From a virus, in the IMG/VR virus record IMGVR_UViG_3300010371_000110, positions 1 to 24,595 of that record: a stretch of 24,595 nucleotides of DNA. One strand, 5' to 3'. Under the pieces are notes generated by a model. That model was not told the DNA's origin and did no database searches. It saw nothing but the letters and a program-made list of their open reading frames with translations. Of this stretch, positions 2,080 through 24,595 are shown piece by piece; position 1 is the stretch's first letter; every line of letters begins with the position of its first letter. The translations under genes and the position numbers were made by a program.

Positions 2080-3360
2080 GTGTTTGTGCAGCAAGATTAC
2101 ATTCTGAACGGCCAGGGGCACGGCCAATTGGCTGAAGCGCTCCAAGGCGTTCGCTTCGACCCGAAGCTCATGCGTCCTTACCTCAACGAGCGCGGTCAGC
2201 GTGTTGTTGATGTCTTTAAGGGCATGGTTCTTAACCACAACGCCAAGGGCAACGAACCGAAGTACGCTCCTCAGTATCAGCCCGAACTTATCACGAACCT
2301 TCAGGCGCGCGGCATCAACAGCCCAGTCTTCAATGCCGTGGCTCTGCGCAAAGAGGAATGGATTCAGCTTGACGCCGTGGTTCTGCGCGCTGCTCGCTAT
2401 CGTTTGCGCGCTTGGGCGGACCTTGCCTCTGCCAACAGCTTCGGCGGTTTCAACGGCATGGGCAAGATGATCCTCGAACATGAAACCATGTCCGATCCCG
2501 GTGAGGCGATTGTGGACATGGACGGTTTGACAGAAGGCCGCACGGATGCCCCGCAGTTCCAACTCCAGGGCTTGCCGTTGCCTCTGACGCATTCGGATTT
2601 CTGGTACAGTTCGCGCCGTCTGGCTGTCAGCCGCAATAGCTCGACCCCACTTGATACGACTTCGGGCGAAACGGCTGGCCGACGTGTGGCGGAAGCCATT
2701 GAGAAAACCCTGATCGGGGTTATCCCCGGCATGTCCTACGGTGGCTCTGGCACGCCCTATAGCTCTGGCTACGGCTATGGCCGTGTCAGTCAGGTCTATG
2801 GCTACGGTAACTTCCCCAACCGCAACACGGCCACTTTCTACCGGCCCAACGGCAACGGTCGTTCGGGGTCTGGCTGGGTTCCTGGCGACTTGATTAAGGA
2901 TATCCTCGCCGCCCGCAGTCAGTTGTACGCCGACAAATTCTATGGTCCCTTCATGGTCTACCATAGCCCCGACTGGGACCAGTACCTTGACAACGATTAC
3001 ATCGTGACGGCAGGCGCGGGTAACGTGTCGGGCCTGGCCACTCAAACTCTCCGCGACCGCTTGCGCTCGATTGAGGGCATCACCGATGTCCGCCGCTTGG
3101 ACTTCATGTTTACCTCTGCTGCGGCGCAAGCTGCTGGGGCAGGTAACGACGCGACCACCTTCTTCCCCTTCACCATGATGATCGTGCAGATGACGCCTGA
3201 CGTTGCGCGGGCTGTCAATGGCATGGACATCACCACGATCCAGTGGGAATCGATTGGAGGCATGAAGCTGTCCTTCAAGGTCATGGCCATCCAGGTTCCT
3301 CAGTTGCGCGCTGACTTCTACGGTAACTGCGGTATTCTGCACGCCACCGCGAGCCTGTAA
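2080..3360 (+). CDS. Major capsid protein, HK97-fold / encapsulin-like
   Basis: This 426-residue protein uses a GTG start with GGAG nine bases upstream. It forms the icosahedral shell. The segment at residues 168-214 (ending ETAGRRVAEAIEKTLIGV) resembles the spine-helix region of encapsulin/linocin-type HK97-fold shells. A Gly/Tyr-rich insertion follows at about 218-250 (GYGYG, YGYGNFPNRNT). The C-terminal part (ITTIQWESIGGMKLSFKVMA, then VPQLRADFYG) is the typical closing beta-strand region of such capsids. Length, position after a decoration-like gene and the downstream connector genes support the call. It appears to be a full-length protein lacking the scaffold domain, which is probably supplied by the gene at 2-1420. 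Confidence 0.85.
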   Translation: MFVQQDYILNGQGHGQLAEALQGVRFDPKLMRPYLNERGQRVVDVFKGMVLNHNAKGNEPKYAPQYQPELITNLQARGINSPVFNAVALRKEEWIQLDAVVLRAARYRLRAWADLASANSFGGFNGMGKMILEHETMSDPGEAIVDMDGLTEGRTDAPQFQLQGLPLPLTHSDFWYSSRRLAVSRNSSTPLDTTSGETAGRRVAEAIEKTLIGVIPGMSYGGSGTPYSSGYGYGRVSQVYGYGNFPNRNTATFYRPNGNGRSGSGWVPGDLIKDILAARSQLYADKFYGPFMVYHSPDWDQYLDNDYIVTAGAGNVSGLATQTLRDRLRSIEGITDVRRLDFMFTSAAAQAAGAGNDATTFFPFTMMIVQMTPDVARAVNGMDITTIQWESIGGMKLSFKVMAIQVPQLRADFYGNCGILHATASL

Positions 3361-5294: not shown

Positions 5295-5513
5295 TTGACT
5301 TGGTACTGGTACTTACTTGGTTTTTACGCCCTGTTTGCCTGTGCCTCTGCTTGGTTTGTTTGGGTTGTCTCTGACCCTTACGGCCATCTTAGCCTAAAAG
5401 AGCGCACTAGGCAGACCGTTACCTATGGCGTTTTCTGGCTCCCCTGTCTTCTTTGGACGATTGGGGAACTTCTCTACGAAAGTTGGAAAGATTACCGATG
5501 GCGCTCGAAATAA
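5295..5513 (+). CDS. Small two-helix membrane protein (holin-like candidate)
   Basis: A 72-residue Trp/Tyr-rich protein with a TTG start and AGGAG at good spacing. Two hydrophobic segments (about residues 3-25 and 43-61) flank a short polar loop (SDPYGHLSLKERTRQ), and the C-terminus is positively charged. Two helices, small size and a basic tail are typical of holins and antiholins, and the next gene, a peptidase, overlaps its end by 16 bases. The holin role is inferred from size, topology and neighbourhood only. Confidence 0.55.
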   Translation: MTWYWYLLGFYALFACASAWFVWVVSDPYGHLSLKERTRQTVTYGVFWLPCLLWTIGELLYESWKDYRWRSK

Positions 5514-6310
5514 TCACACAGCACAACATGCACAAGTTCATGGCTCCCTTGCCGGGGAACCAGAACGCGCTCGGCCATCACGGGCTTATCCCGCGCGACT
5601 TCTCCCTCTATCCGCACGGGAGCCTTTACTACGCGCAGCCCTTTACGTTGCCTCTCATTCCGCGTAGCGAGTGGAAGGCGCGCATCCAGGCCAAGATCGC
5701 AGCCAAAGCGCAGCTATCAGACATTCGCAAGTCTGGTCGCGTCGGTCAGATCGTACCTTCCCGCGACCAGAACGGCAAAGGCTACTGCTGGATGCACTCA
5801 GGCGTTAGCGCTCATCTCTTGGCGCGTGCCTACATGAACGAGCCGTATGCCGATCTCTCGGCTTATGCTGGCGCGTGCATGATAAAGAACTTCCGCGATG
5901 AAGGCGGCTGGGGTGGCGAAGGTGTCGAGTTTGAAGCCACAAAGGGCGTCCCCACGTCTGAGTTCTGGCCGCAACAGTCGATGAGCCGTGGCAACGACAA
6001 CCCGAAGACGTGGGAGAACGCGGCGCTTCATAAGTACGTGCGCTGGATGGACCTGGACCCTAACAACATGCTGGACCAGTTGGTCACAGCCGCGCTTCTC
6101 GATTGCCCGGTCGTCTCGGATTTTTCGTGGTGGTCCCACTCGGTCTGTACGGCTGACATTGTAGACTGGGATGGTCGTCAATTGACCACGCGCATTTGGA
6201 ACAGTTGGGGTGATTCGTGGTCCGAGCAAGGCATGGGCCTTCTCAATGGCAACCACTCGATCCCCGATTCCGCTATCGCCTGTATCGTCGTCAGCCCTTC
6301 GCTTGCATGA
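5498..6310 (+). CDS. Papain-like cysteine peptidase (family C1)
   Basis: A 270-residue protein, starting at ATG 5498, overlapping the preceding membrane gene by 16 bases; an in-frame TTG at 5453 is less likely. All four papain active-site positions are visible. Gln91 and Cys97 lie in QNGKGYCWMHSG, at the papain spacing of six residues. His214 is in WWSHSVCTADIVDWDG, and Asn235 in RIWNSWGDSW, the NSWG signature. Family members hydrolyse peptide bonds with the Cys-His pair. The first ~80 residues are neither a signal peptide nor a clear inhibitory propeptide, so export would need a holin-type route or virion packaging. Roles could include host-envelope protein cleavage, lysis or virion processing. 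The family call is firm; the role is open. Confidence 0.85.
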   Translation: MALEIITQHNMHKFMAPLPGNQNALGHHGLIPRDFSLYPHGSLYYAQPFTLPLIPRSEWKARIQAKIAAKAQLSDIRKSGRVGQIVPSRDQNGKGYCWMHSGVSAHLLARAYMNEPYADLSAYAGACMIKNFRDEGGWGGEGVEFEATKGVPTSEFWPQQSMSRGNDNPKTWENAALHKYVRWMDLDPNNMLDQLVTAALLDCPVVSDFSWWSHSVCTADIVDWDGRQLTTRIWNSWGDSWSEQGMGLLNGNHSIPDSAIACIVVSPSLA

Positions 6311-10960: not shown

Positions 10961-11268
10961 TCCACGATCTTCTCGGCTGGCCGGGTCCGGTAACAAACCG
11001 GCAGTACCTTGCCTGGCAAGGTCATCGTTCAGAGGGCTGGAACCTTCCCGACCGTACCGACCATTACCTCATGCAGATTGCCTGTGAGGTTCGGCGCGTT
11101 CTGTCCAAAGACCCAGCTTCTATAACAAACGATCAGTTCAAGATCGGCTTTGAGAAGAGAAAGCATCTAACACGCAAGGAAAAGCGTGCTGCAAAGAAGG
11201 CTCAGCGAGAACTCAATATGGCGAAGTGGAAAGCACTCGCAGGCTACAAGGAACCCAAAAAAGCCTAA
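10936..11268 (+). CDS. Tail assembly chaperone, -1 frame extension (lambda gpT-like)
   Basis: A 110-residue reading from the ATG at 10936, but probably made mainly as the C-terminal part of a frameshift fusion; the -1 frame enters at CTA 10906 and adds LALSWWGWLA before this Met. No good Shine-Dalgarno site precedes the ATG, and the ATG lies in a potential hairpin loop. The protein has a Trp/Pro-rich start (HDLLGWPGPV, NRQYLAWQG) and a very basic, helical C-terminus (KRKHLTRKEKRAAKKAQREL). The T domain of such fusions contacts the tail tube or tape measure. The stop overlaps the tape measure start (TAATG). Confidence 0.75.
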   Translation: MAKETSRPLHDLLGWPGPVTNRQYLAWQGHRSEGWNLPDRTDHYLMQIACEVRRVLSKDPASITNDQFKIGFEKRKHLTRKEKRAAKKAQRELNMAKWKALAGYKEPKKA

Positions 11269-14200
11269 TGAACGAAACCGAACTAGATAACTTAGTAGTG
11301 CGCTTAACAGGTGATGGCTCAGGCTATCAAAATATGCTGCGCGAAGCAGCCGCACAGACTAAGCAGTTCACGCAAACCGTCTCGGAAACCTTCGCCACGA
11401 TAGGTGGTCTAATTGGCGCTCAGAACACAACAAGCGCCTTTGGCCACCTGGAAGAAGAGACGGTACGTCTTGGCTCGGCTATTAAATCCACAGGGCGCGA
11501 TGTGGAAAAGACAATGGCTAAGTACGGCGAGTTCGTGGAGTCGATGCAAAGAACGAGTTTGCAATCGCGCTCCTCGACCATTAGCCTTTTGGCCCAAGCG
11601 GAAGCAATGGGTATGATCGGCGAAGAAGCTGAGAAAGCAGTACGAGTAGCCTCTAACCTAGAATCTCTTGGTCGTGGCTCGGCTCAGAATGCTCTAGCCG
11701 CGCTCTCGGTGTATCAGCGTACCGGCAACTACTTTGCTCTGGCCCAGTTCATCCCCACCTTACGGCGGGGGCGCGGGATCGGTATGGAGCAAGGTAAAGG
11801 CGGACAAGAGAAACACAATGAGTTTGTTAAGTCGGAGGTTGCGCGCGTTCTCGGCATGGGGGCAGAGACTCAGACCAACCTTATGGCAACTTTCAACGGC
11901 CAACTCAAACTTCTTCAAAATAACCTGCAAGGGCTACGTGAGGATTTGGGACAAATTGTCTCCAAATATGTAAAGCCTGTCATTCAGTTCTTCAACGATG
12001 CCGTCAAGTGGGTGCGCGGTCTGAACCCAGAAATCAAAGAGTTGGTAGTAGTTCTGGGTGGCCTCTTTATCATACTTTCGGGCGCTGGTCCTGTCATGCG
12101 CTTCTTTGCGCTGCTAGCACGTTTGGCTACCTCGATCTCCCCCATGTCAGGTCTTATTATGGGCCTGGCTGCGGCAACCGGGATTTGGGTGAAGTCGGTT
12201 GGAGGTATCTCTAAAGCGTGGGACATTGCCCAGCGGAAAATATACGAAGTTTATAGCCTAGCTACCAGTTGGCTCAGTCAGTTCCTTCAGACGAACCAGC
12301 GCTTAGTACTAGGCATGGGCCTTACGGCAACTGCTATCGCGGGGGTTGTCGTCTCCTGGAAACTCCTTACCGGCACGATAGCTGTTGTCGATTCGGTACT
12401 GACGCTTTTCTACATTAAGCAGACGCTTCAAAAGGCCGCTCTCTTTGCCTGGCAGTCTGCCCTCTATGGAGTTGAGACGGCCCTTGCTGCCGTAAGCCTT
12501 CTGATATCTGGCGCTCAGTGGCTCGGCTCTCTGGCCCTCTCTCTGACTTCGCTGCTGCTTCAGAAAACAGCGCTCTTAGCTTACAACGCTGTTCTGATTG
12601 CTACAACCGGACTGGTCTTTACCTACCAGTTTGCGGTAGGGCTTTTGGCTGCGGCTAGTGGCGCTCTCACTGCCTCCACTACAGCGGGCGCTATTGCAAT
12701 GGCTTTCTACAACGTCGTCATTGCCCTGGCGACCTTAGACTTTAACTTACTTACCCTGACGATCTTTGGCTGTACCGCAGCCAGCGCTGCGTTTGGTGTG
12801 GTAACGACTATTGCCACGGCTGGTCTTAACTTGCTTGTTGGTGCTATCGTTCTAGCTGTTTTTGCAATGGGGGGCTATCTTCTAGCGCAAGTGGCTGTTG
12901 ACGGAGCAATTTCAGCAACCATCGGCCTCATCGGTCTTATGGGGTCTGCCATCGCCAGCTTGGTAGGTATCATAATTGGAGCGCTAACGCCGGTTCTTGC
13001 AGAAGTAGGAGTTGCCCTCGGTATTATCACAACAGCGGGCGGAGTAGCGGCAACAGTTTTCGGTCCACTAATCGCGCTCTTTGGTGTAGCGCTCGTCACA
13101 GCATTCAGCGCTTCTTCAGAAGCGATCAACGGTTTTCTTGATACGCTTCTAACTATTCCAGGCAAGTCTGGGCCATTGGCTACAGTCGGTTCTATGTTCA
13201 TAGAGTGGTATAACATCTTGGTGGATGTCTACCACGCCATTACGCTTATGCCCGCTGCCATTCGAGCGATTAACAGCCCTCTCAAAAATACTCTTGGTAT
13301 CACAACCGGCCTTGACCTGGCATGGCATATTATTCGCGCTGGCTATGATCTAATGGTGGCACAGATTCGCGGCTCCTGGCCATCCTTATGGGACTTTGCT
13401 GTTACAGTAGCTTTAGGAGCGTGGACACTCATCCAAGCCGGCTGGACTGCCTTTACCGCGCAGCTAAAAGTACCTTTCACAAAAGCATTCCATGAGTTGG
13501 CCTATGTAATAAAGAAGCTATTCTTTGATACGCTTGCCGCTATTGCAGACAAAATAGCGCTTGGATTTGCCAAACTGATTCTCGCTAACCCGGATGGCTT
13601 TTTTGTCAAGCAGTTCCGTAGCGCAATGCACGCCATGACCGATCTGCGCGATTCTCTCAAGGAGACTTCGGCTGAGGCTTCGCGCATTCATGCTGTGGAG
13701 GATGCTTTCGGCTATGCGGGTATGGCCGACGATATGAAAAAAGCCAAGGCAGCTATCGACGATCTAAATGCCAAAATCGCCGAGCAAAAGAAGATTATCG
13801 CCGATGCCGCGTCGAAGGGAGTAATTCTTACCGATGCCGACAAAAAGGCTGTAGATGCTGCCCGTAAGCGCCTGGATGATTTGCGCGGTTTGTTAAAGGC
13901 TGCTAGAGCAGAAGAGGAAAAACTCGAAAAGAAGTCGAGCGAACTAAATCCAGGCAAGGGCTTTGAGAGAGGCGAGCAAGAGATTAAGAAATGGGAAGCA
14001 GCGCTAGTTGGCTCCGCTGAAGCTGCTACCCGTATCCAGGAGTATTACGAAAAACTTAGCGAAGGTCCAGGGCATGTGGGATCAGCGCCGGAATTTACCA
14101 AAGACCCCAAAGAAGGCTTACCCGAATTTGTCGGTCCTCCAGCACCTTCCGCACCTGGAGGGGGAGGCACTGGAGGCATGGAAGCGATTCTAGAAAAAAT

Positions 14201-14279
14201 CTACGTGGCACTGACGGATAAGGTTGGTGCCTACGAACGGCGCGTGCGCCTTTCAGGTGTTGGAAAGGTAGGTCTCTAG
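11268..14279 (+). CDS. Tail tape measure protein
   Basis: A 1003-residue protein starting at the ATG that overlaps the chaperone stop; the frame extends upstream without a better start. It begins with a helical segment (LVVRLTGDGSGYQNML) typical of tape measure N-termini. A soluble helical domain (MGMIGEEAEKAVRVASNLES) follows, then many hydrophobic stretches between about 250 and 640, and a C-terminal Lys/Glu/Ala-rich coiled coil (about 820-905, for example KKAKAAIDDLNAKIAEQKK). It sets tail length and is ejected before the DNA; at the roughly 1.5 angstrom per residue seen in siphoviruses, a tail near 150 nm is expected. No peptidase or muramidase motif was seen. Confidence 0.85.
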   Translation: MNETELDNLVVRLTGDGSGYQNMLREAAAQTKQFTQTVSETFATIGGLIGAQNTTSAFGHLEEETVRLGSAIKSTGRDVEKTMAKYGEFVESMQRTSLQSRSSTISLLAQAEAMGMIGEEAEKAVRVASNLESLGRGSAQNALAALSVYQRTGNYFALAQFIPTLRRGRGIGMEQGKGGQEKHNEFVKSEVARVLGMGAETQTNLMATFNGQLKLLQNNLQGLREDLGQIVSKYVKPVIQFFNDAVKWVRGLNPEIKELVVVLGGLFIILSGAGPVMRFFALLARLATSISPMSGLIMGLAAATGIWVKSVGGISKAWDIAQRKIYEVYSLATSWLSQFLQTNQRLVLGMGLTATAIAGVVVSWKLLTGTIAVVDSVLTLFYIKQTLQKAALFAWQSALYGVETALAAVSLLISGAQWLGSLALSLTSLLLQKTALLAYNAVLIATTGLVFTYQFAVGLLAAASGALTASTTAGAIAMAFYNVVIALATLDFNLLTLTIFGCTAASAAFGVVTTIATAGLNLLVGAIVLAVFAMGGYLLAQVAVDGAISATIGLIGLMGSAIASLVGIIIGALTPVLAEVGVALGIITTAGGVAATVFGPLIALFGVALVTAFSASSEAINGFLDTLLTIPGKSGPLATVGSMFIEWYNILVDVYHAITLMPAAIRAINSPLKNTLGITTGLDLAWHIIRAGYDLMVAQIRGSWPSLWDFAVTVALGAWTLIQAGWTAFTAQLKVPFTKAFHELAYVIKKLFFDTLAAIADKIALGFAKLILANPDGFFVKQFRSAMHAMTDLRDSLKETSAEASRIHAVEDAFGYAGMADDMKKAKAAIDDLNAKIAEQKKIIADAASKGVILTDADKKAVDAARKRLDDLRGLLKAARAEEEKLEKKSSELNPGKGFERGEQEIKKWEAALVGSAEAATRIQEYYEKLSEGPGHVGSAPEFTKDPKEGLPEFVGPPAPSAPGGGGTGGMEAILEKIYVALTDKVGAYERRVRLSGVGKVGL

Positions 14280-16041: not shown

Positions 16042-16602
16042 ATGTCCGAAGATACCGTTCACACTGGAAGCGACAGTTCAAGCGCTACAGAGGAAACTCC
16101 ATCGCGCGAAATTAAGGCGACAACAAAAGCGCGCTTCGGAGTCGTGGAGACGGTCTACTTTCAACAGCCCGAAACCATCCCGGTAGCCGTTGACTCGCGC
16201 TTTACTCGCTGGCTTGACTCGGAAGAACAACCCTACTTGCGGCAGGCCAAGATCGGCCAGGACTGGCAAGAGGTTGATGTTGGCTGGATCGAAAATCTGC
16301 CCGTCAGTCAGCTTGTTCTTCGTAACGATGAGGGTAAGTTCCAAGTCCAACCGACTCCCGAACAGCGTGCCCTTGTTATGGGACGCATTCTGGAGCTAGC
16401 CATCCTGCCTCGTCCCGATGCGTCGGACCTGACCAAATGCCGCACCATGCGCAGCCCTCCCAAGCGAGAGACACCGCCTCTATCCTTTGCCGTTCTCCGT
16501 CCCGGTCAATCCTTGCGCTTTGAGCCAGTGGACGCTAACCGACTTGTTATCCGTTGTAGATCGGGTATCGCTCGGCTAACCCTGTTCGCTATCCCTGCTT
16601 AA
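16042..16602 (+). CDS. Hypothetical tail-region protein
   Basis: A 186-residue protein whose ATG directly follows GGAGCAACC. The N-terminus is Ser/Thr/Glu-rich and probably disordered (HTGSDSSSATEETPSREI). A central domain (PVAVDSRFTRWLDSEEQPYL, then VGWIENLPVSQLVLRNDEGK) and a C-terminal beta segment (LSFAVLRPGQSLRFEPVD, RLVIRCRSGIARLTLFAIPA) follow. Its stop overlaps the next start by one base (TAATG), coupling it to the mucin-like protein, so it may be an attachment or assembly partner of that adhesin. No family recognised. Confidence 0.5.
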   Translation: MSEDTVHTGSDSSSATEETPSREIKATTKARFGVVETVYFQQPETIPVAVDSRFTRWLDSEEQPYLRQAKIGQDWQEVDVGWIENLPVSQLVLRNDEGKFQVQPTPEQRALVMGRILELAILPRPDASDLTKCRTMRSPPKRETPPLSFAVLRPGQSLRFEPVDANRLVIRCRSGIARLTLFAIPA

Positions 16603-18806
16603 TGTCCGATGCTTTTTTCGTTCTCAGCGAGAGCGATAGACAACAGCTTAAAAGGCTCTTAAACCTCGTCAAGACGGCTCCGCGCAATACGCGCAACCGA
16701 GACGCGGTGGAAGAGGAAGTTGGTTGGGGCGCAGAGCTTTATGTGGCTCTGACTCCATCAGGCGGCATTAACGCGGCTCTCTCTTCCGCGTCCTGTCCGA
16801 TCTATCAGCTTCTTCCCAACTGGGCACTAACTCCCCCGGCTGGAACGCTCCAGCAGATCGGCGGTACGAGCCAAACCGTCTTTGCCCTCAATCCCATCCC
16901 CGGCTCGACTTGGGTTTTAGTCTCACGCGACCGCTACGGCGTGTGGTGGGTTGTCGCTGAAGCAGTAGGTACAACCAGCACCACGACCAGCACTTCCACG
17001 ACTCCCCCGCCCTGTCAGGGAAGCTGTACGTTCATCTGGTCAGGAAGCGCCTGGCAAATCCAGTCCTACGGCTGTACGCCGTCTAGCTGCGCTTGTATCT
17101 CACCTACGATTGTTGGTACGAAAACAGGTCAAACGACTACCACCAATTGCAACGGTTCCAGTACCACAACCACGACCACAACTAGCGCTCCCTGTACGGG
17201 TAGCTGTGTCTACAACTGGTCGCCTGGCACGGGCTGGGTACTAAATACTTCGACTTGCTCTGGCGGTTGTCAGTGCGAGACGCCACAGTATTGCCCCTGC
17301 ACGAACGCGGGTGGAGAATGCACACAAACCTACTGTGTGTCTAATTCCTACTACGTACCACCGCAACCGTGGTGTCCGAATGGTTCCTCAACCACGACCA
17401 CGGGAACGCCGACAACCACAACGCAACCGCCCGCTTGCACCACAACCATCTCACCGAGTTGCTCGGCCTGTACGTGGTTCTGGAACGGTCTGGGCTGGTA
17501 TCAGGTAACAAATGGCTGTGTGGCAACAAACTGCTTCTGTCCAGGTCCGGGTAACGTCACTCCATCGGATTGCTATGTCTTTAGCGTTCCCTGTCAAACA
17601 GTACCACCACCACCGCCCCCCTCTTGCGGAGGCTATTGCAACTGGACTTGGGACGGGTTTGCTTGGGTATTAACTCTTGGCGGTTGCACAAGCTATGGAG
17701 CCGTAACGGGCTGCGGTTGCTCTTGTCCCTCTCCGTCTATAGCTGGCTCGTACTGCGGCGCGACAACGCAAACCTCTTGCGGTTGGAACGGTTGTCCTGG
17801 CGGCACTACTCCCCCGCCCTGTACCCTTCCCTGTCCGTGGCAATGCCCGACAACCACCGTACCACCAACAACGACGCCCGCGCCCTGTTCAGGCAACTGC
17901 TGCTTCAGTTGGAATGGCTCAGCTTGGATACAGACGGCCAATAATTGTACGAGCGGAGGCGCTCCTGGCTGTGGCTGTTGTCCTCCTGGCTACGCGGGAC
18001 AAGCGACGTGCGAAACGGCCCAAACTTCTTGTGCTAACCCGCCTACTTGCGTTACCAGTACCACGACCACTACGACCACAACCACGACTACCACGACTAC
18101 CCTTTGCGGATATTGTATCTACCTTTATGGAGTATTTGGCAACGTCACAAACGTAACGAACCTCTGTAACTCGAATTGCACCTGTCCCGGCGCGCCTCCC
18201 CCGCCTATTGGTGGTGTCGGTACGATTAAAGCGAACTGCATCCCCACGACAACAACTACCCCGCCCCCCTGTGGTAGCTGTACATACCAATGCGCTCCTG
18301 GCAACTACTGGACTTTACAGAGCGTCAACTGTTCGGGTAGTTGCCAATGTCTGTTCCTGTCGAATACTGTCTACTGTCCTATTGTGGGGCAAACCCAGAG
18401 CTTTAACTGTAGTAACGTCTGTGTCAATTGCGGTGGACTTCCAAACGTCACGCTACCCTGTCCAGCCACAACGACAATAGCGCCTATCTCTTGCGGGCAA
18501 TGTATCTGGAACTGCGGTTATGGTCTTCAGTGGACTCTTTACGTTGGCTGCGCACAGCCCGGTTGCACTTGCGACACGCCAGCCGGCCAATGCGATTGCT
18601 GTTGCAATCAGACCGCTGTGACCAACTGTAGAACGACTACGACCACGCAACCGCCTCCGGTCTGCGGCACTTGTACCTTTACCTGGACTGGTTCTAGCTG
18701 GAGTACTCCGACAAACAATTGCCATACAGGAAGTGGCTGTATCTGCCGCGCGCCTACCTTTAACGGTACAACGCCCGGTCAGCAAGCGACAACCAACTGT
18801 TCATAG
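16602..18806 (+). CDS. Mucin-like tail adhesin: nine Cys-rich modules on Thr/Pro linkers
   Basis: A 734-residue protein, coupled to the previous gene (TAATG). Residues 1-123 form a non-repetitive domain (for example STWVLVSRDRYGVWWVVAEA) that probably joins it to the virion. From 124 to the end there are nine modules of about 45-60 residues, starting near residues 138, 198, 279, 342, 429, 502, 557, 631 and 688. Each has a core of roughly C-x2-3-C, one or two Trp, Cys, then C-x-C and a final Cys; about 80 Cys in all. Linkers are Thr/Pro/Ser-rich, one with 14 consecutive Thr. No signal peptide is seen. This build recalls mucins: rigid, disulfide-bonded knobs on potentially O-glycosylated stalks. 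The next gene is a glycosyltransferase. Confidence 0.7.
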   Translation: MSDAFFVLSESDRQQLKRLLNLVKTAPRNTRNRDAVEEEVGWGAELYVALTPSGGINAALSSASCPIYQLLPNWALTPPAGTLQQIGGTSQTVFALNPIPGSTWVLVSRDRYGVWWVVAEAVGTTSTTTSTSTTPPPCQGSCTFIWSGSAWQIQSYGCTPSSCACISPTIVGTKTGQTTTTNCNGSSTTTTTTTSAPCTGSCVYNWSPGTGWVLNTSTCSGGCQCETPQYCPCTNAGGECTQTYCVSNSYYVPPQPWCPNGSSTTTTGTPTTTTQPPACTTTISPSCSACTWFWNGLGWYQVTNGCVATNCFCPGPGNVTPSDCYVFSVPCQTVPPPPPPSCGGYCNWTWDGFAWVLTLGGCTSYGAVTGCGCSCPSPSIAGSYCGATTQTSCGWNGCPGGTTPPPCTLPCPWQCPTTTVPPTTTPAPCSGNCCFSWNGSAWIQTANNCTSGGAPGCGCCPPGYAGQATCETAQTSCANPPTCVTSTTTTTTTTTTTTTTLCGYCIYLYGVFGNVTNVTNLCNSNCTCPGAPPPPIGGVGTIKANCIPTTTTTPPPCGSCTYQCAPGNYWTLQSVNCSGSCQCLFLSNTVYCPIVGQTQSFNCSNVCVNCGGLPNVTLPCPATTTIAPISCGQCIWNCGYGLQWTLYVGCAQPGCTCDTPAGQCDCCCNQTAVTNCRTTTTTQPPPVCGTCTFTWTGSSWSTPTNNCHTGSGCICRAPTFNGTTPGQQATTNCS
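17013..18803 (+). repeat. Nine tandem Cys-rich protein modules
   Basis: The protein-level repeat reads approximately C-x-G-x-C-x-[WY]-x-W-x-G-x-x-W, later C, C-x-C and a terminal Cys, with one to six extra cysteines in several copies (modules 2, 4, 5, 7 and 8 are the most Cys-rich). The copies have diverged at DNA level, so this is an old duplication held by selection rather than a recent tandem expansion. The copies at 138, 198 and 688 are closest to the consensus. Confidence 0.7.
18060..18101 (+). repeat. Run of 14 threonine codons
   Basis: Residues 487-500 of the mucin-like protein are all Thr, encoded by a mixture of ACC, ACG, ACT and ACA. The mixed codons argue that threonine itself is selected, rather than replication slippage of one triplet. 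Shorter Thr runs occur in the other linkers. Confidence 0.8.
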
Positions 18807-18825
18807 TTCGCCCTAGGAGCAACCA

Positions 18826-21366
18826 ATGACCGATTACAAGTCTCTCCTTACCGTGGGGATGGCTACCTACGATGATTTTGACGGAGTGTATTTCACTCTC
18901 CAAGCGCTTGCTACCTATCACGCGCCCTGTCAATACCTTGTCATTGACAACGCACCACAGGGTTGCCAGCGCACTAACCATGCGACCTTGGCTGTGGGTG
19001 GAACCTATCTGCACCGTCCCGATCTGGTGGGAACAAGCGCTCCGCGTGATGCCCTTTTCCGTCTGGCCAAAACGCCGTGGGTACTATGTATTGACAGTCA
19101 CGTTCTTTTAGAACCGGGAGCCATTACCGATCTCATTGCGTTCATCAAAAAGTATCCAGACTCCAGGGATTTACTCCAAGGTCCGCTCGTCTATGACGAC
19201 GGCAAGACGGTCGTGACCCACTGGCGCATGACCAATCCCCCCGGTCTTTGGGGCGTCTGGGACACTGCCTGGGAGAACACCAAAGGCCGACTGTTCACGA
19301 TTGGCGCTCCCGATAAGAACGGTCAGCCAACTCTACCTAACCTTGACGGTGGACAGTCGGATATGCCTGCTCCAAAAGCGCGAGCAGGAGAGACGCTTGA
19401 GGATGCGCTACGGCGGGTCGGTTGCCGCAAAGTCCCTGACTTGTCCTTTGACATTCCCATGCAAGGGCTTGGCCTCTTCGCTATGCGTAAAGATGCCTGG
19501 CCTGGCTTCAATCCTCTCTTTCGCGGGTTTGGTGGCGAAGAGGGCTACTTGCACGAAAAGGTACGGCAAGCAGGAGGACGCGCGCTTTGTCTTCCTACTC
19601 TGCGCTGGCGGCATCGTTTTCGCCACACGGAAGCGGGCCATCCTGGACCGTCTTACAACCCTCAGCTAGAGGATCATGTCTGGAACCTTCTCATTGGCCA
19701 CCGTGAACTCGGTATCCAGGCTATTCCGCAAATCGATCAGGATTTTGGTCAGCGCTTGCCATCCGGCAAGTTCCAGGCACTTACTAAAGAATCGCAAGAG
19801 AAACAGCCACTCCATCGACCAATTGAGCGTAAGCGATTGAAGCTCTTAGGAGTTTGGTACACGAACAACGCCGCGCCGGAAAAGCTACTCCAAAGCTCGC
19901 TTCAGTCTATTAAACGAGCGCAAGGCGAGACGATGTACCATGACGTAGTGATTGGTGTCTCGGCCTGGAAGCCAATCCCCAATAACCCTTTCCAGACAAA
20001 CACGCTCTACTTAAAGCCTCAAGCAGAAGGTCATGCCGCTATCCTGTCTCAGATTCATACAGCCATGACCGCATCGGGGGCCAAGAACGACTTCGACGGA
20101 ATCTTGTTCTTAGAACACGATGTCCTTTACCCGCCCGATTACTTTGACCGCATGGGCAATGCACTCATAACCAACCCCGTTGCCAGCAATCTTGACTATG
20201 AGGGCATGAATGAGACAGGATGGCTCCGTGTCAAAGAGCGCCATGAACCGATGCACCAACTGGGAATGATTGCTCACGTCGCTCTTGAGAACTTAGAGCG
20301 CTGCCGTATCGAGTGTGCGGAAAAGGGTTGGTGTCTTCTAGAGCCACAGGGCGACCGTACCGACTGGGCGCGCCTACCTTTCCGTGGCCTCATGCCGTCA
20401 ATCCACGTCAACCATCCCAAACGCTTTACAAGTCATGGCGAAGTATGCTATGAGGCTAGTTCGCAAGGTCGTCTTCAGCATCCCTTCTGGGGCGACTATC
20501 GGCAGTATTGGCCATTAGAAGCCAAACCCGCCGTTGCGCAAAGCTGCGGCACTTGTGGAGGTCAGCCACCCCAACCGATTGTCACAGCTTCTAGCCTTGA
20601 AGAATGGTTTGAGCAAACGAAAGCACGTCCGTCAGACTTCCACGAACATATGGACACAATGCGTGACCTGGCTTCCCAGTCCAAGGTTTGCGTTGAGCTA
20701 TCCGCTTGGGGCAAGCCCGCGCTATTGGCAATGGCAGCCGGCAAACCGGATAAGCTACTTAGCATTTGTCACGCTCCGAAGGGAGAATGGACGATCCTCG
20801 ATAAGCTCTTGCCTGGATTTGAAGGCATCGTTAGCGAAAGTCTGAAATCTACTCCAGTTACTTGCGATCTGCTCTTTATCGACACGCTCCATCAGGCCGA
20901 ACGGCTACACGACGAACTAGAGCGCTGGGCACCCTACTGCAAAAAGTGGATCGCGGTTCACTGTACGCGCACCTATGGCGAAGTCGGCGATCACGGCGGG
21001 CCAGGAGTTCTACCCGCTATCCGGCGCTACATCAAAGACCATCCTGAATGGTCCGTGAAATGGCACCGCCACGAAAACCACGGTCTGATTTTGATGACCT
21101 GCGACCCCGCCGACAAGAAAGCGCTGCCATCCAAATGGAAGCAAGCAGTCAACGCGGCCAAGGCCAGTTGGCGCGCTGGTCAGTCTGTTCTCGGCAACAT
21201 GGGCGAATGGGCAGGTACTCTCAAGCAAGATGAGCGCTTGGCTCTATGCCTTGTCTGCGAGTCCCTAAACGGTGGAGCCTGCGCTGAGTGTGGTTGCCCG
21301 GTTGAGAATAAGTCGAGCTTTCCTACTGAAGAGTGTCCGCTAGGAAGGTGGACTAAAAATGCTTGA
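18826..21366 (+). CDS. Multi-domain glycosyltransferase (GT27-like + second GT-A + methyltransferase-like + Cys cluster)
   Basis: An 846-residue protein starting after GGAGCAACC. Residues 1-300 are a GT-A glycosyltransferase: the start LLTVGMATYDD, the metal motif D90-S91-H92 in WVLCIDSHVLLEPGA, the acceptor-side segment GFGGEEGYLHEK and H263 in WRHRFRH. A DxH motif with a distal His followed by -x-F-R is the Mn-site pattern of polypeptide GalNAc-transferases (GT27). Residues 335-560 look like a second GT-A domain (GILFLEHDVLYPPDYFDRM, with E-H-D at 430-432). Residues 600-760 resemble a Methyltransf_24/CmcI-like Rossmann domain (VCVELSAWGK, CDLLFIDTLHQAERLHDELE). C808, C811, C819, C822, C824 and C837 form a C-terminal metal-binding-like cluster similar to DUF6171-type tails. 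Likely substrate: phage or host surface protein; this is inference. Confidence 0.7.
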   Translation: MTDYKSLLTVGMATYDDFDGVYFTLQALATYHAPCQYLVIDNAPQGCQRTNHATLAVGGTYLHRPDLVGTSAPRDALFRLAKTPWVLCIDSHVLLEPGAITDLIAFIKKYPDSRDLLQGPLVYDDGKTVVTHWRMTNPPGLWGVWDTAWENTKGRLFTIGAPDKNGQPTLPNLDGGQSDMPAPKARAGETLEDALRRVGCRKVPDLSFDIPMQGLGLFAMRKDAWPGFNPLFRGFGGEEGYLHEKVRQAGGRALCLPTLRWRHRFRHTEAGHPGPSYNPQLEDHVWNLLIGHRELGIQAIPQIDQDFGQRLPSGKFQALTKESQEKQPLHRPIERKRLKLLGVWYTNNAAPEKLLQSSLQSIKRAQGETMYHDVVIGVSAWKPIPNNPFQTNTLYLKPQAEGHAAILSQIHTAMTASGAKNDFDGILFLEHDVLYPPDYFDRMGNALITNPVASNLDYEGMNETGWLRVKERHEPMHQLGMIAHVALENLERCRIECAEKGWCLLEPQGDRTDWARLPFRGLMPSIHVNHPKRFTSHGEVCYEASSQGRLQHPFWGDYRQYWPLEAKPAVAQSCGTCGGQPPQPIVTASSLEEWFEQTKARPSDFHEHMDTMRDLASQSKVCVELSAWGKPALLAMAAGKPDKLLSICHAPKGEWTILDKLLPGFEGIVSESLKSTPVTCDLLFIDTLHQAERLHDELERWAPYCKKWIAVHCTRTYGEVGDHGGPGVLPAIRRYIKDHPEWSVKWHRHENHGLILMTCDPADKKALPSKWKQAVNAAKASWRAGQSVLGNMGEWAGTLKQDERLALCLVCESLNGGACAECGCPVENKSSFPTEECPLGRWTKNA

Positions 21367-21916
21367 CATTCGAGAGGAACTAGAGCGTTTAAAAAGTACT
21401 CCGCGCGTTTGGAACAACTACAACGCGGAAAATGTGACTCCCGGCCTTATCGAGTTGTGTGAGGAATGGATTCACCCAAACATGGTAATGGCCGAAGTCG
21501 GTTGCTTTCGTGGAGTTAGTACCTCCGTATTTGCTTGCTTTGCACATACAGTATTTGCTGTAGACCCGTGGACACTTGGCATATCTCAGGGCTATGGCGA
21601 GATACCGGCTGATATGATGCGCAAGGCTGAAGACGAGTTCTTAGAGGTTTGCCGCAAGTTCTCTAATATAAGGCGCATCAAAGGGTTTTCCGTTGAAGCT
21701 GCGCAAGACTTCCATCCTCAAATTCTTCACGCTGTTTACTTAGACGGGGCGCACTCTAAGGAGGCCATTTCACAAGATGTACGAGCCTGGCTCCCGAAGA
21801 TAAAGCCCGGTGGTCTTCTTATGGGCCACGACGCTGGACTTGTACCTTTTGGCGATCTGGGACTTCCTTCCGTAACAAAAACCTATTCCGAGTCTTCTTG
21901 GGTTATAAAGCTATGA
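21359..21916 (+). CDS. Class I SAM-dependent methyltransferase (Methyltransf_24-like)
   Basis: A 185-residue protein with an ATG overlapping the end of the glycosyltransferase gene by eight bases. SAM-binding motif I is AEVGCFRGVSTS (E46-V-G-C-F-R-G), followed by the second-strand acidic motif VFAVDPW (D69), D129-G-A-H in VYLDGAHSKEA, and GGLLMGHD (D158) near the end. This order is typical of the Methyltransf_24/CmcI group, which methylates small molecules and sugars. The location between glycosyltransferases suggests glycan O-methylation, for example capping of a sugar on the phage surface protein. The fold is clear; the substrate is inferred from context. Confidence 0.75.
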   Translation: MLDIREELERLKSTPRVWNNYNAENVTPGLIELCEEWIHPNMVMAEVGCFRGVSTSVFACFAHTVFAVDPWTLGISQGYGEIPADMMRKAEDEFLEVCRKFSNIRRIKGFSVEAAQDFHPQILHAVYLDGAHSKEAISQDVRAWLPKIKPGGLLMGHDAGLVPFGDLGLPSVTKTYSESSWVIKL

Positions 21917-22632
21917 CTCTAACTTGGGCCTACGGTGTTACGACTGTACCGGAGCGCATTGATTCCACGCTCCCTCTCACTCTTCGGAGCCTGGCTGCGG
22001 CTGGCTTTGATGAGCCACGTCTCTTTGTCGATGGAGAACGGCTGGCTATACGCTATGAAGATATGTTTGGCCTACCCGTATCGACGCGCTGGCCACGCAT
22101 TCGCACGCATGGCAACTGGCTTTTATCTATCGTGGAACTGGTATCCAGAAATCCGAACGCGGATCGCTACGCCATCTTTCAGGACGATTTACTAACCTGT
22201 AAGAACTTGCGCGGCTATCTCGACCAGTGCAAGTATCCACGCGACGGCTATTTGAACCTTTATACGTTCCCAGAGAACGAAGCCATTGTTCCGCCCGATC
22301 CCACTGGCAAGCGCTCAAAGGCAACGGGCTGGTTCCGCTCCAATCAGCGCGGTAAAGGCGCTCTCGGTCTTGTCTTTGGCAACGCCGTTGTCTACAAGCT
22401 TCTCTCTAGCCTCCATATCTGGGATCGTCAGCGCGACCCTAACCGTGGTTGGCAGAGTACCGATGGGGGCGTAGTAACCGCGCTTTCATTCCAGGAAGTC
22501 TCTGAGTACATCCATAGTCCGAGTCTCGTTCAGCACATCGGCCATGTCTCGACAATGGGCCACGGGAAGTATCCTGAAGCGCTCTCATTTCGTGGTGAGA
22601 ACTTTAACGCTCTCGATCTTCTGACTCCCTGA
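21913..22632 (+). CDS. GT-A-type glycosyltransferase
   Basis: A 239-residue protein. The start at ATG 21913 overlaps the methyltransferase stop (ATGA); a TTG at 21898 is in frame but less likely. The N-terminal strand-helix (WAYGVTTVPERIDSTLPLTL, SLAAAGF) and RYAIFQDDLLTCKNLRGYL with the acidic pair D91-D92 give the nucleotide-sugar/metal site expected of GT-A enzymes. Near the C-terminus, PSLVQHIGHVSTMG resembles the closing segment of GT54/MGAT4-like enzymes. It is the third transferase-type gene of the putative glycan cassette after the mucin-like protein. Donor and acceptor cannot be deduced from the sequence. Confidence 0.65.
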   Translation: MTLTWAYGVTTVPERIDSTLPLTLRSLAAAGFDEPRLFVDGERLAIRYEDMFGLPVSTRWPRIRTHGNWLLSIVELVSRNPNADRYAIFQDDLLTCKNLRGYLDQCKYPRDGYLNLYTFPENEAIVPPDPTGKRSKATGWFRSNQRGKGALGLVFGNAVVYKLLSSLHIWDRQRDPNRGWQSTDGGVVTALSFQEVSEYIHSPSLVQHIGHVSTMGHGKYPEALSFRGENFNALDLLTP

Positions 22633-22688
22633 TACTCTGACCTGTGACTATTGACCTTGTACGTTGCTCCCCTTCAGTGAGGAATACA

Positions 22689-24595
22689 ATGCGAAAGAGT
22701 CTTTGGGCCGTCATCCTCTCGACTGGCCTTGCTACTGGCCTCAGCGCCTACCTAGGTGTATCGGGGCAATCGCCTACACCGACAACCAATTACTCCGCTG
22801 TCCTGCCTCAGCCCGGCACGGTGCCCTATGATCTTGTGGCCGTGCGTTGGCCGCATGATCCGACCGGCCAGACAGAGACATCGTGGGCTGAAGTCACCAC
22901 AAGTAACACCAAGGTTGCTTCAGGCGCGGACCTTGTAACGGTCCACAATGACGGCACGGTTGATACGCTCGTTTCAAGTGCTAATGGAACCGCTTTGGCC
23001 GATGGGATTAGCGACCCCTACATCTCCTTCGACGGCCAAAACGTCTACTACACGCGCTACCGACTCTCGCAAGTTGTTGGCGCTGCGGTTGGAACGGCAG
23101 CTTGCACCGGAGCCGATTGCTACCGCGTCAATGTCGCAACGAAGACTGTTACCCAGCTAACAAACGGCGGTTACTCTCCAATCAATCCAAATAACGCCGT
23201 CCCCAACTATCCGGTTATTAACTCCTGTCCCTGTCCGCTGCCGGACGGTGGATTTATATTCTGTTCCAACCGCGATTCCGTAAAGCCAGCCAAAGCTTAT
23301 ACGCTCTATAACATGAAGTTATACCGCGCTAGCGCGGACGGCTCCAATGTCGAGTGTATTACGCCCATGTCTCTTGGCTCGGCTCTCCATCCTTTTATCG
23401 GGCCGGACGGCATGATCTATTTCTCGACCTACGAATGCCAGGGTCTAAAAGACTTGCGGCAATGGGCGATCTGGAAAATCCGCCCCGATGGAACGCAATG
23501 GGGTCCAGTCATTTCTGCGCTAACCGGACCTTTTGTGTGGCACTTTGGCCGCGTTGTCTCGGATGGCTCGGTGGTGGCTACCTCCTACTACAACGAAAAC
23601 GCCAAGTCGTTTGGCTCGGTCTATCGCGTTCCGGCGCAAGGCTTGCCGCCAAACTTTGGTCCCGCCTATCCTGGACCTGGACTCTTCGCCGATGGTGTTA
23701 TTAATTTCCGCTTTCGGCCCAATGGCTTGACCAGACTAACTACTTTTTGCACAGGTGAGGATCGTCCTTCGGACCTGTCGATTCCGACCGATCCCAACTC
23801 GCCGCGCGTGGGTAAGGTCACGCATCCTAGCGCCGCGCCCGGTAACAAAGTGCTAGCAACATGGTCGCCCGGCGCGGTCCATCGGCAAGACTTGCCCGCC
23901 AATTGGGGGCAGATCGTCCTCTTTGATGCCGTAACACCAACGACGGCAATTAACCAGATGGTTGCACTGAAAACCGATCCGGCCTGGAACTATGCTTGGC
24001 CGCAAGCGCTTCAGTCCCATCAACAGATTTATGGCAAAGCGCAACCAGACACGATTGCCGACTTGAAGAACGACGGCAAGACGACACCGGGTTTGCCTGA
24101 AGGCACACCTTTCGGCTATGTCGGTACAGCCTCACTCTTGCAAAGTGAGTGCTTCCAGAACGGCACGGTTGTTAATGGACGGGGAACGAATCCTAACGCC
24201 AACGATCCTTTTAGTGGTCTACAAAACGTCTACCACGGCGATGCCAACGCTTGGAGCTTTCAGGGTACGACAACTAAGAACTACTCTAACGACGATGTAG
24301 TTGCACTTGAAATCATCTACCAAGAACCGACGCCTGCTGTTCCTACCAACACTTCTACCCAGAAATGGGGCAATAAGGCGAACGAGCGCATGCGTTCGGG
24401 CGGTATATTCCCGGTACGGCAATTCACGAACGGTCAGCAGCAGAAAGACCCGACCGGAAATTGGGACACGTCGATTCTCGTCAAAGTCACAGCCAATACA
24501 AGCTTCACCTTTGCTACCGTCTTAAAGGATGGTACGCGCGGCAATCTGTCGCAGACCTGGCACCAACTTCGGGCTGGTGAAGTGCGGGCTGACTG
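22689..24595 (+). CDS. Secreted beta-propeller-like (PD40/TolB-like) protein, 3' end outside window
   Basis: A frame open from ATG 22689 to the window end (635 codons), preceded by GAGGAA at a usable distance. The N-terminus is a signal peptide: Arg-Lys, then a hydrophobic core (LWAVILSTGLATGLSA). The mature part shows repeated propeller-like blades: YISFDGQNVYYTRY (110-123), PLPDGGFIFCSNRD (183-196) with LYRASADGSN, FIGPDGMIYFSTYE with WKIRPDGTQ, and GKVTHPSAAPGNKVLATWSPG (375-395). This is the PD40/TolB pattern; the later segments recall HzsA-related proteins of Planctomycetota, at low certainty. Unlike upstream virion genes it is clearly exported. It could be a moron changing the host surface or the first gene beyond the structural operon. 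Confidence 0.6.
   Translation, partial: MRKSLWAVILSTGLATGLSAYLGVSGQSPTPTTNYSAVLPQPGTVPYDLVAVRWPHDPTGQTETSWAEVTTSNTKVASGADLVTVHNDGTVDTLVSSANGTALADGISDPYISFDGQNVYYTRYRLSQVVGAAVGTAACTGADCYRVNVATKTVTQLTNGGYSPINPNNAVPNYPVINSCPCPLPDGGFIFCSNRDSVKPAKAYTLYNMKLYRASADGSNVECITPMSLGSALHPFIGPDGMIYFSTYECQGLKDLRQWAIWKIRPDGTQWGPVISALTGPFVWHFGRVVSDGSVVATSYYNENAKSFGSVYRVPAQGLPPNFGPAYPGPGLFADGVINFRFRPNGLTRLTTFCTGEDRPSDLSIPTDPNSPRVGKVTHPSAAPGNKVLATWSPGAVHRQDLPANWGQIVLFDAVTPTTAINQMVALKTDPAWNYAWPQALQSHQQIYGKAQPDTIADLKNDGKTTPGLPEGTPFGYVGTASLLQSECFQNGTVVNGRGTNPNANDPFSGLQNVYHGDANAWSFQGTTTKNYSNDDVVALEIIYQEPTPAVPTNTSTQKWGNKANERMRSGGIFPVRQFTNGQQQKDPTGNWDTSILVKVTANTSFTFATVLKDGTRGNLSQTWHQLRAGEVRAD

Follow-up and report, generated by a model that had tools for sequence, protein, structure and literature searches.

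Does a bacterial virus encode its own mucin together with the enzyme that glycosylates it? The question is raised by the window analyzed here, a 24,595-bp IMG/VR virus record (IMGVR_UViG_3300010371_000110) in which head genes are followed by tail genes and then by a locus encoding ADH, a Cys/Thr-rich protein, and GT1, a multi-domain glycosyltransferase (GT). Open reading frames (ORFs), called by simple rules, lie at 16602–18806 (ADH), 18826–21366 (GT1), 21359–21916 (a methyltransferase, MT), and 21898–22632 (a GT-A-like protein), as an initial annotation made from the sequence alone had laid them out; the gap between ADH and GT1 is 19 bases, and the overlapping ends it described are found downstream, where the MT and GT-A-like genes each overlap the preceding gene. 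That annotation proposed a glycosylated, mucin-like tail protein made by a single gene cassette. Its observation of the locus is confirmed by our analysis and its interpretation is partly supported: ADH and GT1 probably constitute a phage-encoded cassette for mucin-type O-glycosylation of a distal tail protein.

ADH (plus strand) has 734 residues, including 81 Cys, 133 Thr, 76 Pro, and 63 Ser, and its ORF and composition bear out the nine Cys-rich modules on Thr/Pro/Ser linkers that had been described. An N-terminal domain of approximately residues 1–123 (16602–16970, plus strand) precedes the module region (17013–18803, plus strand), in which composition and a module hidden Markov model place modules beginning at residues 138, 198, 287, 342, 429, 501, 557, 631, and 688, with Thr/Ser/Pro linkers between them. 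Long Thr/Ser/Pro-rich stretches, a mucin-like criterion, are present in ADH and are more extreme in proteins of four other loci (L027, L167, L181, and L186). Because all four Thr codons are used in the Thr runs of ADH and no tandem repeat exists at the DNA level, DNA (microsatellite) slippage is excluded as their origin. Codon changes relative to a sister contig (L002) are overwhelmingly silent, with 33 synonymous and one non-synonymous in ADH and 21 and one, respectively, in the first 142 codons of GT1, against a random expectation of ~24% synonymous; purifying selection therefore acts on the two proteins.

Where would ADH reside? Its gene follows the tape-measure gene (11226–14279) and the genes at 14279, 15593, and 16042. 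Four phages (L188–L191) have head and tail genes like those of the window, including the tape measure, a 14279 homologue, and the ADH N-terminal domain (27–32% identity in L188, L189, and L190; similar by inspection in L191), and three of the four also carry 15593 and 16042 homologues. The proteins that occupy the ADH slot in these relatives have different C-termini, one of them fibre-like (L189). From this synteny and the N-terminal domain common to related tail proteins, ADH is predicted to be a virion protein of the distal tail. Alternatively, it could be an exported lysogenic-conversion protein that is shown on the host cell and glycosylated there, not part of the virion. Thr/Pro linkers with Cys modules are common among secreted proteins, and the protein encoded downstream at 22644 has a signal-peptide-like start; against export, no signal peptide is evident in ADH by inspection, its gene is part of the tail operon, and the proteins of the same slot share its N-terminal domain, and we consider this explanation quite improbable.

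GT1 (846 aa, plus strand) is composed of four domains: GT27-like (d1), GT2-like (d2), O-methyltransferase-like (d3), and Zn-ribbon-like (d4). Invariant residues, profile comparison, and structure prediction with AlphaFold2 and Foldseek all liken d1 (18826–19815, plus strand) to the GT-A domain of polypeptide GalNAc-transferases. The DxH metal motif predicted at residues 90–92 is present as D90-S91-H92 (19093–19101, plus strand). The predicted distal His-x-F-R is likewise present, as H263-R264-F265-R266 (His263 of a WxHRF motif at 19612–19614, plus strand), with the qualification that R266 is not conserved in relatives. Among 38 aligned d1 relatives, D90, H92, H263, R264, and F265 are invariant and R267 is nearly so. 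The profile built from these 38 aligns with GALNT10 over both halves of the domain (E=1.9e-6), equating D90-S-H92 with DSH, FGGEE with WGGE, and H263 with the distal His (GHIYR), and it also matches GALNT7, GALNT4, GALNT9, and GALNT12. TarP, a phage-encoded S. aureus enzyme that adds GlcNAc to wall teichoic acid, outscores GALNT10 in this search but spans only the N-terminal half of d1.

Modeled with AlphaFold2, GT1 residues 1–330 reach a pLDDT of 90, and the best 50 PDB matches of this model in Foldseek are all polypeptide GalNAc-transferases (GT27), with E-values from 4e-13 and the highest TMq, 0.64, to Toxoplasma GalNAc-T3 with a Muc5AC peptide. The comparison with GT27 structures that the initial annotation had suggested as a check was thus favorable by both profile and fold. 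An internal control is provided by d2, which belongs to the same enzyme and the same fold class and is also confidently modeled (residues 335–564; pLDDT 91.5): its best 50 Foldseek matches comprise heparosan synthase 2, SpsA, RmlT, TarP, and similar proteins, with no GalNAc-transferase. As modeled, then, the whole-domain fold and metal site of d1 are GT27-like. In Pfam, all 38 d1 members are assigned to PF00535 (Glycos_transf_2), a generic family 2 entry, with no finer assignment, and no GT27-specific catalytic model in Pfam is known to us. We do not claim strict GT27 membership for d1, because the GT27 lectin domain is missing, curated models stop at family 2, and the activity is only predicted.

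Which sugar d1 might transfer is a separate matter, and GalNAc would be a guess drawn from fold similarity. A refinement compatible with glycosylation of ADH is that the first sugar is something else, such as Glc, GlcNAc, Gal, or a deoxysugar. A fold match at ~15% identity cannot reveal substrate specificity, d3 resembles a rhamnosyl O-methyltransferase, and GT2-type neighbours use various donors; that every one of the nearest folds is a UDP-GalNAc enzyme points the other way without being a direct counterpoint. We hold the two possibilities to be evenly balanced.

The rest of GT1 is consistent with further tailoring of a glycan. The second GT-A transferase, d2 (19828–20517, plus strand), is of GT2 type by alignment and by its model and contains a conserved FLEHDVLYP motif; it is missing from several other cassette enzymes. 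It is followed by d3 (20578–21195, plus strand), whose family was assigned as Methyltransf_24 in nine of 16 members and as rhamnosyl O-methyltransferase/CmcI in three, and by d4 (21229–21351, plus strand), a Cys-rich tail with family matches to the Zn-ribbon-like DUF6171/phrog_13558. PDB sequence searches with d2, d3, ADH, and the 21898 product yielded nothing useful. GT1 looks like an initiator, an extender, and a methyl-capper within a single chain. In another locus, a GT1 homologue is broken into two ORFs (L113:7704-10842), by either a frameshift or an assembly error.

Does the pairing of such an enzyme with a Thr-rich protein recur? The initial annotation had proposed looking for co-occurrence, and the pair was found in many unrelated, mostly uncultured phages. 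A Thr-rich ORF lies within 4 kb upstream of 33 of the 72 d1 clusters, compared with none of 35 other windows from the same loci (Fisher p=9e-8) and one of 36 windows from GT-free phage loci, these controls being small. For enzymes with both d1 and d3, the fraction of clusters with a Thr-rich upstream neighbour rises to 10 of 11; with one exception (L117), every fused d1+d3 GT for which upstream sequence is available is preceded, usually by less than 80 bp, by a Cys/Thr-rich partner containing 48–88 Cys where complete. Matches to the window's Cys-module profile among 4,813 ORFs were limited to proteins of GT-bearing loci. When the search was started from a partner protein (L073 type), all nine loci of sufficient length carried a GT; some of these had previously been found through the GT, while L199, L203, and L204, plus L201, were new. 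Stand-alone d1 enzymes are sometimes preceded by near-pure Thr/Ser/Pro proteins (L027, L186, L181, and L167), with Thr contents of 45% in L027 (344 aa), 54% in L186 (249 aa), and 35% in L181. On the d1 tree, the Thr-rich-neighbour trait changes state ~16 times, and the association is therefore not one inherited block. Genetic linkage of the GT to a Thr/Cys-rich protein is strong.

Two features of these partners were noted in passing. Those of L181, L167, and L168 share a C-terminal Cys-containing motif, C-N-[KR]-L-G-[FY], which may serve as a tag for recognition or anchoring. In L137 (L137:3037-6791), a single GT is preceded by two mucin-like Cys/Thr-rich proteins in succession, at distances of 1.2 kb and 3.1 kb.

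The tail relatives provide the converse of this linkage. No Cys-module match and no GT1 were found in L188–L191, and all four carry homologues of the 21898 gene (43–45% identity). Where the ADH C-terminus is a different one, GT1 is thus missing and 21898 retained; GT1 tracks the Thr/Cys-rich C-terminus, and 21898 tracks the tail lineage. This distribution bears on the possibility that GT1 acts, in the manner of seroconversion or superinfection exclusion, on a host surface glycan (an S-layer, lipopolysaccharide, or a wall polymer) and adjoins ADH since both genes concern host adsorption. The match of the N-terminal half of d1 to TarP would fit such a role, as would the many d1 relatives that are encoded by cellular genomes or by phage clusters lacking a Thr-rich neighbour. 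However, GT1 follows the C-terminus and not the tail module, the whole-domain fold matches of d1 are polypeptide-modifying enzymes, nothing points to a transmembrane or lipid-carrier step, and Thr/Ser is what the partners have in common, from those with Cys-rich modules to those that are near-pure Thr/Ser/Pro. We therefore judge modification of a host glycan unlikely.

Several observations nevertheless weigh against ADH and GT1 as a mucin-type cassette. The TM-scores of the d1 matches to GT27 are moderate, 0.58–0.64 at ~15% identity, and no match to the Ricin_B lectin domain of the GT27 C-terminus was found in GT1, where the C-terminus is instead occupied by d2-d3-d4. In the window's own GT1, d3 is degenerate. 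A fused GT with the domain order d1-d3-d2 (L117:7698-10721) lacks a Thr-rich ORF over the 4 kb that precede it, and so do 39 of the 72 d1 clusters, among them a large clade whose enzymes are short and stand-alone; because of these 39, part of the d1 family may act on other acceptors.

Do the two downstream genes belong with ADH and GT1? MT (21359–21916, plus strand) encodes a separate Methyltransf_24 protein (E=6.6e-13), an accessory tailoring gene. In L115, a homologue (51%) separates the Cys-rich protein from the GT, and none is present in the other 12 of the 13 further cassette records; the separate MT is an occasional accessory of the cassette. The GT-A-like protein encoded at 21898–22632 (plus strand) is of unassigned family, and no homologue of it was found in the same 13 records, which may be fragments, so that absences are of lower grade than presences. 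It probably belongs to the tail-gene lineage and not to the mucin pair. On the distribution of the 21898 and 21359 genes we reject the single cassette of four genes originally proposed, with the one following the tail lineage and the other occurring in only one of 13 other records. Methyl capping of the glycan is still plausible, because an O-methyltransferase-like domain is built into GT1.

Taken together, these data make the following scheme the most likely one. The conserved N-terminal domain would dock ADH to the tail, leaving a C-terminal string of Cys modules on Thr/Ser/Pro linkers. GT1, translated directly after ADH, would be a dedicated cytoplasmic O-glycosylation enzyme: d1, as a metal-dependent GT-A of GT27 type, would place the first sugar on linker Thr/Ser in the infected cell, d2 would attach a second sugar, and d3, perhaps with the separate MT in the window phage, may O-methylate the glycan. 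Glycosylated ADH would then be incorporated at the tail tip by way of the N-terminal domain, the product being a stiffened, sugar-coated, mucin-like tail protein. A role in adsorption, receptor masking, or shielding from proteases or host defences is speculation.

The remainder of the window contains a major capsid gene (2080–3360) in the head module and the tape-measure gene in the tail module. The sister contig (L002/L096) encodes neighbouring proteins that are mostly 95–100% identical to those of the window, together with a tape-measure protein only ~50% identical and a 10936 product ~65% identical; these two divergent proteins mark a mosaic exchange in a pair of phages that are almost identical elsewhere. 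Within the structural module, a gene at 5453–6310 resembles papain-like (C1) cysteine peptidases (weak Pfam match, E=0.041) and has homologues at 47% and 49% in other phages (L100 and L111). Directly after the locus, the gene with the signal-peptide-like start (22644–24595) gives a weak PD40/beta-propeller match and runs past the window end; it could represent either a moron gene or flanking host DNA. Scans for promoters, terminators, tRNAs, and Rfam elements found nothing beyond chance, an NCBIfam search of the window proteins gave no useful match, and a planctomycete-type N-terminal motif, the only host-assignment attempt, had no match among the predicted ORFs scanned.

How does the locus compare with known systems? 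Searches by tblastn with GT1 and ADH found nothing in INPHARED (50,697 annotated phages) or PLSDB (72,556 plasmids), a stand-alone GT likewise found nothing in INPHARED, and no description of such a cassette was found in the open-access literature, which is weak evidence of novelty given that many journals lie outside that search. The lack of detectable matches in annotated phage records may explain why the family escaped notice. We lean slightly toward the view that mucin-type O-glycosylation, by a GT27-like initiator dedicated to Thr/Ser-rich acceptors, is widespread among bacterial viruses in the form of a compact cassette of two genes, and that it possibly represents a branch of the animal and protist enzymes that is either independent or ancestral. 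If so, mucin-style coats would be a common viral strategy, compact enzymes would be at hand for making O-glycoproteins in bacteria, and the finding would bear on the origin of the GT27 catalytic domain.

With GT27 enzymes (animal GALNTs, PGANT, and Toxoplasma GalNAc-T), GT1 shares the GT-A fold, the DxH and distal His, the whole-domain profile and fold match, and the association with a Thr/Ser/Pro-rich protein; it differs in being phage-encoded, in its low identity and undetected lectin domain, and in its fusion to GT2-type, O-methyltransferase-like, and Zn-ribbon-like domains. TarP is also a GT-A/GT2 enzyme and matches both the N-terminal half of d1 and the d2 fold, but its match to d1 ends before the distal-His region and it acts on teichoic acid; we know of no Thr-rich partner of TarP. 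Virion glycosylation is known from a few mycobacteriophages: Che8, Corndog, and Myrna are reported to glycosylate their own virion proteins (Freeman et al. 2023, via PMC12363180; PMC11256854), the targets being capsid and tail-tube proteins. The window would likewise encode an enzyme acting on its own virion protein, as predicted from its genes, but in Che8 the GT genes are located toward the right end of the genome, whereas the mucin-like acceptor of the window adjoins its enzyme; the Che8 glycosyltransferases gp108-110 were rejected as GT1 homologues, having no whole-domain similarity to d1. The combination of Thr/Ser/Pro-rich stretches with Cys-rich modules is one that ADH shares with eukaryotic mucins and mucin-like viral domains; it differs from both in being a tail-module protein of a bacterial virus, with no export pathway seen and glycosylation that is only predicted. 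The recurrence of the ADH–GT1 pair suggests that some phages glycosylate tail proteins of their own in a manner resembling mucin production by animals.

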